Source of the DNA: Bacteroidales bacterium
GTDB taxonomy: Bacteria > Bacteroidota > Bacteroidia > Bacteroidales > UBA932
Reading direction: 5' to 3'
Assembly: GCA_017555965.1 (NCBI GenBank)
Contig: JAFZFH010000056.1
Location: 1-32,561, forward strand
Length of the DNA: 32,561 nucleotides
The first letter of the stretch is position 1, and each line of letters starts with the position of its first letter. Made by a program: the position numbers and the translations under genes. The notes beneath the pieces were generated by a model. The model saw only the letters and a program-made list of their open reading frames with translations. It did no database searches and had not been told where the DNA came from. Of this stretch, positions 16,384-17,652 are shown in pieces.

Positions 16384-17652
16384 ATGAAGAAAGTATTGGT
16401 CATCGGCAGCGGCGGACGCGAACATGCGATTGTTGACGCTTTGAGTCGTTCTCCGCAGGTTGGAAAGATTTATTGCGCACCTGGTAATGCAGGAATCGCT
16501 GCTCAGGCAGAATGTGTCGCAATCAAGGATACTGATGTAGAGGGACTTAAGGCATTTGCTCTCGCAAACGAGATCGATCTCGCTGTTGTGGGACCTGAGG
16601 TTTCTCTTGCAGCAGGTGTTGTAGATGCATTCAAGGATGCAGGACTCCGTATCTTCGGCCCATCCAAGGCAGCTGCAACAATCGAGGCAAGCAAGGACTT
16701 CGCAAAGCAGCTCATGGCGAAGTATGATATCCCTACTGCAGCGTTCGAGACATTCGAGGATTATGAGGCTGCTCTTGAGTATGTAAAGAAGGGTTCATTC
16801 CCGGTAGTGCTCAAGTATGACGGTCTTGCAGCAGGTAAGGGTGTGGTGATTCCTGAGACCCTTGAGGAGGCTGACGAGACACTCAAGGATATGCTTCTCG
16901 ACGACAAGTTCGGAAAGGGCAAGGTCGTTGTTGAGGAGTTCCTCACAGGTCCGGAATTCTCATTCATGTGCTTTGTTGACGGTCTGGATGTATATCCGAT
17001 GACTCTTTCGCAGGATCATAAGCGTGCTTATGAGGGTGACAAGGGTCCAAATACAGGCGGTATGGGTGCATATTCACCTGTTCCTATCATCACAGATGAG
17101 GATGTGGAGTATGCAATGGAAAAGGTGATGAAGCCTACTGCTGCCGGAATGGTTGCAGAAGGATGTCCGTTCACAGGTGTTCTCTACGGCGGTCTCATGA
17201 AGACTCCGACCGGAGTGAAGGTGATCGAGTTCAACTGCCGTTTCGGAGATCCTGAAACTGAGGTTGTGCTTCCTCGTCTTGCTTCAGACATCTATGATAT
17301 CTTCTCTGCTGTTGCAGACCATACTCCTATGCCGCAGATCGAGTGGAAGAAGGAGGTTACAATGGGCTTCGTGATGGCTTCCAAGGGATATCCTGGAGAC
17401 TATGAGAAGGGTCATGAGATCAACTTCCCACCTGTCATTTCGAGCGAAGTCGAGAAATCTTCTATACGTATCTACCATATGGGAACATCTGTAAAGGATG
17501 GCAAGTACTATACTGCCGGCGGTAGAGTCCTTATGGTGGTAGGCTTCGGTGCTGACCTTCAGGAGGCTCATGACAAGGCGCTTGCAGCAGTCGAGTCTAT
17601 CGAGTGTGACAATCTTTTTTATCGTAGAGACATTGGTTGGAGAGTATTATAA
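16384..17652 (+). CDS. purD: Phosphoribosylamine-glycine ligase (GAR synthetase)
   Basis: A 422-residue ATP-grasp enzyme joining phosphoribosylamine and glycine. N-terminal motif KVLVIGSGGREHAIVDAL, then FGPSKAAATIEASKDFAK, the ATP-grasp core with LKYDGLAAGKGVV, the DKGPNTGGMGAYSP loop, and EFNCRFGDPETEVVLPRL. Residues 351-359 (VISSEVEKS) are encoded exactly by a 27-bp palindromic repeat (17434-17460) and lie in a surface loop of the C-terminal domain, before IYHMGTSVKDGKY and the AGGRVL motif. All core motifs are intact, so the enzyme is probably active. The start at 16384 is chosen over an upstream in-frame ATG at 16303, which lies inside the leader inverted repeat. The TAA stop shares its last A with the folD ATG. 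Confidence 0.95.
   Translation: MKKVLVIGSGGREHAIVDALSRSPQVGKIYCAPGNAGIAAQAECVAIKDTDVEGLKAFALANEIDLAVVGPEVSLAAGVVDAFKDAGLRIFGPSKAAATIEASKDFAKQLMAKYDIPTAAFETFEDYEAALEYVKKGSFPVVLKYDGLAAGKGVVIPETLEEADETLKDMLLDDKFGKGKVVVEEFLTGPEFSFMCFVDGLDVYPMTLSQDHKRAYEGDKGPNTGGMGAYSPVPIITDEDVEYAMEKVMKPTAAGMVAEGCPFTGVLYGGLMKTPTGVKVIEFNCRFGDPETEVVLPRLASDIYDIFSAVADHTPMPQIEWKKEVTMGFVMASKGYPGDYEKGHEINFPPVISSEVEKSSIRIYHMGTSVKDGKYYTAGGRVLMVVGFGADLQEAHDKALAAVESIECDNLFYRRDIGWRVL
17434..17460 (+). repeat. 27-bp palindromic repeat, copy C, in frame within purD
   Basis: Begins GTCATTTCGAG and ends GTCGAGAAATCT. TCGA at 17440-17443 pairs with TCGA at 17450-17453, extended by ATT/AAT with a two-base bulge. Length is a multiple of three and it starts on a codon boundary, adding VISSEVEKS to PurD. 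It shares the GTCAT start and ATCT end with copies A and B but has a different stem. Confidence 0.75.

Follow-up and report, generated by a model that had tools for sequence, protein, structure and literature searches.

The window analysed in this work, that is, the whole stretch of 32,561 nucleotides, carries purD, and within this gene the 27-nucleotide repeat GTCATTTCGAGCGAAGTCGAGAAATCT starts at a codon boundary and is read in frame as VISSEVEKS (Table 1), as had been proposed in a previous interpretation made without database searches (hereafter, the sequence-only reading). By inspection, no stop codon interrupts any of the three forward frames of this copy. The enzyme is left intact, also as proposed, since PurD reaches 525.7 bits with the model TIGR00877 (cut-off 288), and GARS_N, GARS_A and GARS_C are all matched in Pfam. 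The 27-mer is single-copy in the window, where the expected number of matches with up to three mismatches is 0.00 (100 shuffles). The genome from which the window derives comprises 2.56 Mb in 165 contigs and is 86% complete; the PurDs closest to its own come from Bacteroidales MAGs, many with titles that mention the ruminant gut, and PurD records of Candidatus Cryptobacteroides display 75-79% identity to its PurD.

Table 1. Features of purD and of the repeat unit that it contains (positions in the window).
Feature	Position	Strand	Remarks
purD, phosphoribosylamine-glycine ligase, 422 aa	16384..17652	+	REP peptide is residues 351-359, in the C domain (GARS_C, 327-420)
Variable PurD loop, 21 codons	17413..17475	+	In relatives, other REPs or ordinary loops of 12-18 residues
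REP-like unit of type a: T-GTC head, arms, apical part and CT tail; 28 nt including the head T	17433..17460	+	27-mer at 17434-17460
Left arm ATTTC	17437..17441	+	Pairs with 17454-17458; covariation
Apical part GAGCGAAGTCGA, conserved	17442..17453	+	Inner pair G17444-C17451 (C-G in a sub-type)
Right arm GAAAT	17454..17458	+	Covariation

The loop was measured from the residue after KG of YEKG to the Y before HMGT. Reading one strand, PurD was recovered at 94 of 110 loci (16 gave none), and both loop anchors were located in 88 of the 94; several loci correspond to the same genome reached twice (e.g., L008/L037, L010/L056 and L011/L059). Ordinary loops have 12-18 residues and REP-bearing ones 15-40. 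The loop studied here has 21, whereas close relatives sharing 93-95% PurD identity have 16 (L038 and L008/L037) or 15 (L039), which agrees with the earlier statement that the loop is shorter in other PurDs; in both phmmer alignments examined, from 2 of 11 solved PurD sequences, the structure is likewise 5 residues shorter at this point. None of the nearest relatives, nor of the more distant ones listed, has the nine residues in its PurD loop, and they are therefore not a feature conserved across genera. The claim that the repeat adds exactly nine codons is wrong, the net growth being 5-6 codons relative to close relatives, and the expected absence of residues 351-359 at a precise site was borne out for the absence and not for the site, given that the flanking sequence differs too. 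A clean 27-bp insertion was thus rejected, as the difference from relatives amounts to 5 or 6 codons and extends to the sequence adjoining the unit; in the sister L038, nothing clearly corresponds to the DNA that flanks it. Because the sequence beside the repeat also differs from that of relatives, we describe this loop as rewritten, by replacement plus growth.

Other units occupy the same loop in related genomes. A 33-nt unit read in another frame (CHPEERSDV or close) is found in L056/L010, L061 and L064, a CGTC-headed variant (RHCGERSDVAI) in L059/L011, three tandem head units in L052 and an extended unit in L049, and in L041 and L050 an inverted unit was read by eye as paired head to head with a direct one. 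Loops were scored with four consensus models and 300 shuffles per loop, and a REP was counted when the score was at least 12 and no shuffle (0/300) equalled it. Twelve of 37 loops were at 0/300 shuffles, among them those of G068 (10.9) and L068 (9.9), which score below 12 and were not counted. Accordingly, of the 26 genomes in which all three genes were followed, 10 (the present one included) have a confident REP in the PurD loop, as do 0 of the 11 other rows, and across these 10 genomes the REPs vary in type, orientation and tandem state. The unit of the window matches the consensus at 22 of 22 positions. The loop of G066 (L053), at 19/300 shuffles and hence uncounted, may hold a decayed unit.

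The case for a palindrome rests on covariation between copies, and not on calculated stability: as an isolated single strand, a 35-nt stretch is predicted to fold weakly (-1.5 kcal/mol), a value equalled or bettered by 153 of 200 shuffles. Copies in the genome of origin follow the layout (T/C)GTC, AYNNC, GAGCGNAGYCGA, GNNRT and mostly CT, with both N positions of the arm pattern varying jointly across the arms. With the right-hand partners of the covarying outer pairs left unspecified in the search patterns, type a units gave 18 distinct rows with 99.1% of cells paired and 17 both-side cells (0/500 shuffles), and the 33-nt types b and c gave 19 distinct rows with 99.3% paired and 21 both-side cells (0/500 shuffles). 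The stem starts with AT and comprises 5 continuous pairs plus 1-3 inner pairs set off by GA/GA; in a chosen set of 9 type a and 3 sub-type rows, the inner pair changes from G-C to C-G in 3 of the 12. The GA/GA flanking the inner pair is likely a tandem sheared G.A mismatch, and the energy model may credit such tandem G.A pairs little. Regarding the ends, the head is TGTC or CGTC in 36 of 37 distinct type a and b/c rows and AGTC in 1, GTC being fixed by the search pattern and the first base free, and the tail is CT in 28 of the 37 and CC in 4. An extended unit with an additional apical hairpin resembling GGCCGAAGGCC (EAEGRVEKS) was also observed in purD and lpd loops (L049, L246, L247, L248 and L263).

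The unit recurs in its own genome and in relatives, so that the 27-mer is not confined to purD. Counting with mismatches, as the sequence-only reading had suggested, yielded 6 copies of the 27-mer with up to three mismatches, and the core GTCAYNYCGAGCGNAGYSGAG with up to one mismatch occurs at 10 places, with 0 matches in the backward controls of either search; the copy number is low, about ten. Four of the 10 places lie in frame inside ORFs (purD, metG, lpd and a 632-aa ORF without a family match in TIGR/Pfam-type models), 1 overlaps a gene end and 5 are outside the kept ORFs; the 33-nt pattern was found 0 times in this genome. Among 20 relatives, type a was present in all (2-35 places each; backward controls 0-1 per genome, 3 in total) and types b/c in 18 (up to 28 places; controls 0). 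The exact palindrome pattern with free arms was detected in 67 of 200 genomes of the genus (1-60 copies) and in 14 of 296 genomes of a phylum sample, the genome studied being included in both and the controls being 0, while the exact 27-mer had 0 matches in viral contigs. The genomes compared were mostly MAGs or drafts. One distant genome of the same class in the phylum sample (G251) carries 28 type a copies, some of them arranged as inverted pairs in which the tails face each other and the starts are separated by 68 bp.

Core genes other than purD carry units as well. metG was found in 25 of the 26 genomes, with two copies in G079, and has two REP sites, filled in 8 of 26 rows (site 1) and 14 of 26 (site 2); in lpd, after rows without anchors were dropped, the two sites are filled in 9 of 17 and 4 of 19 rows, respectively (score at least 12 and 0/300 shuffles in all cases). 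In G067, 42 of 43 reported places (30 type a, 13 type b/c) were examined, the remaining one, on C42, being left out: 9 units lie in frame in genes, 1 at a C terminus, 8 over the ends of kept ORFs and 24 outside, fractions that are rough since coding calls were made by longest ORF. The in-frame carriers are purD, metG (twice; named by likeness to the metG of the present genome), aroC, nadE, murB, an ArsP_2-like exporter, an M3 peptidase and a TonB-receptor-like barrel. In the aroC gene of G067 (chorismate synthase, L280:680-1738), an antisense unit (DFSTSLEMT) is followed, in frame, by a short tandem GGPLEMT repeat. Units at 3' ends were also observed. Some read SSRA-stop, with the TAG sitting within the apical part, and give the gene its last residues and stop (L118:1501-1516 on C34 of the present genome; L292, L301 and L303 in G067), and VIPSEVEESK or close variants followed by a stop form REP-derived C-termini at the ends of several ORFs (L195, L197, L204, L212 and L214).

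Our results thus reveal a dispersed family with covarying arms, in-frame copies, and sister species that differ in presence or type at one loop. With the integration of these findings, the 27-mer is very probably a copy of a small, non-autonomous REP-like palindrome that spreads at low copy number in some species of the genus. The sequence-only reading, which saw a spreading palindrome tolerated as a peptide in the manner of Rickettsia palindromic elements (RPEs), fits this recurrence and the in-frame copies and is supported; it understated the case, as the PurD loop and several core genes are repeatedly affected, and overstated the precision of the nine codons.

The history of these loops was examined in trees built without them. 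In the PurD tree, the type a sequence of the window is sister to the unit-less L038 (98/84), L064 (type b) to the unit-less L042 (100/98) and L059 (type c) to the unit-less L060 (100/95), and L049/L052 (type a) are grouped with L047/L056 (type b) (100/93). A three-gene tree of 26 genomes, built with the loops removed and with stars on only 9 of its 23 inner branches, requires a minimum of 6 presence/absence changes for purD, 7 and 6 for metG sites 1 and 2, and 3 and 4 for lpd sites 1 and 2, counts that cannot separate gain from loss. The loops might instead have been filled once in an ancestor, their variety arising from descent, deletion and homologous exchange of alleles rather than from repeated insertion, an alternative that we consider unlikely although several alleles are compatible with it: those of metG site 1 share flanking residues (AYD..(P/A)Y-NRY) in G061, G066 and G067; the PurD alleles of G062 and G067 are separated by a 24-nt gap between short direct repeats; and in L056, compared with both L052 and L047, similarity stops directly after purD, near the variable loop, so that import of an allele is possible there. 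However, a single filling has to accommodate 27-nt, 33-nt and extended types, in both orientations, at one site, and a pattern of recurrence common to five sites in three genes. It also has to account for the sisters G071 and G073 (100/100), whose loops differ (PurD, type b vs. none; metG site 2, type b vs. type a) even though the nearest full segments flanking the purD and metG loops are 54-58/60 identical. Length differences were noted at further places: at metG site 2, G067 is 27 nt longer than G065 by a partial copy of its unit, and in a murB-like gene beside metG (by likeness to L311) 48 nt encoding the REP-like CHPEQSEG are present in G071 and lacking in G073.

If the repeat is indeed a spreading REP-like palindrome, copies would land in many places, and the intragenic ones that survive would be those sitting in open frames, in loops or linkers tolerating extra residues. 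Once in a loop, a unit could serve as a substrate for slippage, yielding tandem head units, and for deletion between units, and might also be open to head-to-head pairing with another unit and to exchange with other alleles or REPs; the expected outcome would be a fast turnover of the loop with the enzyme kept intact. In this way, the palindromes seem to remodel tolerant loops of core enzymes continually. A more speculative extension, to which we give only limited credence, is that resident REPs act as landing pads, where a unit in a permissive loop preferentially recruits or converts further REPs through shared head and arm sequence, so as to form a running loop-diversifying system; the exchange of types a and b in metG of G071/G073, the tandem head units and the head-to-head pairs would then, just as tentatively, be its traces. 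Separately, at one metG site the units of the present genome (L217) and of G073 (L220) differ by a compensated pair (ATCCC..GGGAT vs. ATTCC..GGAAT), a difference that suggests either conversion between units or a constraint on the DNA palindrome.

Selection could alternatively act on the peptides themselves (VISSEVEKS, CHPEERSDV, etc.), for instance as a shared interaction motif, the palindrome being incidental. A few identical peptides do recur across several enzymes, and units in the sense orientation outnumber those in the opposite one (6 vs. 3) among the 9 that lie within ORFs of G067, but two sense frames and an antisense frame are all in use within the PurD loop, unrelated peptides are freely exchanged at one site, the peptide is missing altogether in many relatives, and copies outside genes (e.g., L119 and L121-L123) have matched arms as well; we therefore find this explanation highly improbable. 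Chance resemblance or low-complexity drift of a variable loop, for which the short motif, the variability of the loop, the weak calculated fold and an outgroup loop at 0/300 shuffles (L068) could be invoked, was rejected for the PurD copy on its full consensus match, the shuffles with no expected match in the window and the empty backward controls of its own genome, and is barely conceivable.

Regarding what could move such a REP-like unit, Y1_Tnp matches were found in 46 of 61 genomes of the genus, 43 of them above the cut-off. Eight were translated: the seven from other genomes are proteins of 305-365 aa with a Y..NNP motif, and the only match in the present MAG is a 134-aa ORF ending in YIENQ, like an IS200-type TnpA. 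No unit was found beside Y1_Tnp genes at 30 loci, within up to about 1.5 kb and with some loci cut by contig ends, two motif matches at such loci (L129 and L143) being ascribed to chance; a looser hairpin scan gave 4.5 matches per 100 kb at 29 Y1_Tnp loci, compared with 6.3 and 6.6 at 44 and 29 PurD loci. Three of four hairpin-scan matches near Y1_Tnp genes (L138:125, L148:1151 and L150:770; e.g., CGTCATGCCCGTCCCCGACCGGGCATCTT) resemble REPs of another kind. The exact pattern was present in 22 of the 46 genomes with a Y1_Tnp match and in 1 of the 15 without (Fisher p 0.005, uncorrected for relatedness); the co-occurrence corresponds to a Spearman coefficient of 0.35 in the 61 genomes, with p 0.09 in the 25 that are at least 90% complete, and G052 (98% complete) has 8 units and no Y1_Tnp match. 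Movement in trans by a Y1_Tnp protein is possible; as candidate machinery, we consider a RAYT/HUH transposase that would act in trans, or template switching at the hairpin coupled to replication.

Searches by title and abstract opening of the literature on REPs in Bacteroidales, on RAYT in Bacteroidetes and on RPEs retrieved no description of these units, and the matches listed for the motif strings look, by title, like unrelated primers. As far as the literature was searched, the units in these Bacteroidales look new, above all the repeated re-colonisation and exchange of types at loops of core enzymes. Such loops constitute a natural, replicated record in which short repeat DNA is converted into part of the sequence of core enzymes and close relatives provide both empty and filled sites. 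Two questions thereby become testable, namely by what means REPs lacking a neighbouring transposase move, and at what frequency mobile DNA gives rise to new loops in proteins. They also call for caution, as recurring short peptides in these proteins (VISSEVEKS, CHPEERSDV) are translations of REPs and not motifs.

In descriptive terms, the units in purD, metG and lpd of the present genome, and in purD, metG, aroC, nadE and murB of G067, are intragenic REPs, a class of which in-frame members are known in several phyla, from both the CGTC and the GTAG family (Di Nocera et al., 2013, PMC3733652, in the sections used here, as for all statements below that cite this work). They behave like RPEs, which are small palindromes in frame in genes of known proteins and tolerated as peptides, a likeness of behaviour alone; unlike these, they reside in a Bacteroidales gut bacterium and several unit types occur at one site. 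As in RAYT (TnpA-REP) systems, for which the portion of PMC6006769 consulted describes REPs inserted within tnpAREP genes (subclass 2.4), the genus has Y1_Tnp proteins of the Y..NNP kind, but the head is TGTC/CGTC and not the GTAG of RAYT-mobilised REPs, and no units flank the Y1_Tnp genes at the loci examined.

The closest resemblance is to the CGTC-tagged REPs, palindromes of 20-40 bp with a CGTC/TGTC head and a stem starting with AT, described in five phyla including Bacteroidetes, and to which RPE-4 and RPE-6 of Rickettsia belong (PMC3733652). These are defined by an unpaired terminal CGTC, TGTC or CCTC, an 8-9 bp stem, a loop of 4-5 and a short tail that is mostly CCA; head-to-head dimers predominate among them, intragenic in-frame copies occur, and no transposase gene adjoins them (PMC3733652). 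The units described here share the TGTC/CGTC head, the AT stem start and the lack of an adjacent Y1 transposase gene, and a few may form head-to-head pairs (those read by eye in the PurD loops of L041 and L050), whereas their stem consists of 5 pairs plus inner pairs flanked by GA/GA, rather than 8-9 bp, and their tail is mostly CT rather than CCA. We call them CGTC-REP-like, because stem and tail fall outside the CGTC definition. A single same-site case of CGTC REPs is given in that source, in recB of two Xanthomonas, the other REP-bearing genes of the class differing in site (PMC3733652); unlike CGTC REPs, the present units form tandem head units in loops, and the purD, metG and lpd loops appear to have been refilled repeatedly within one genus.
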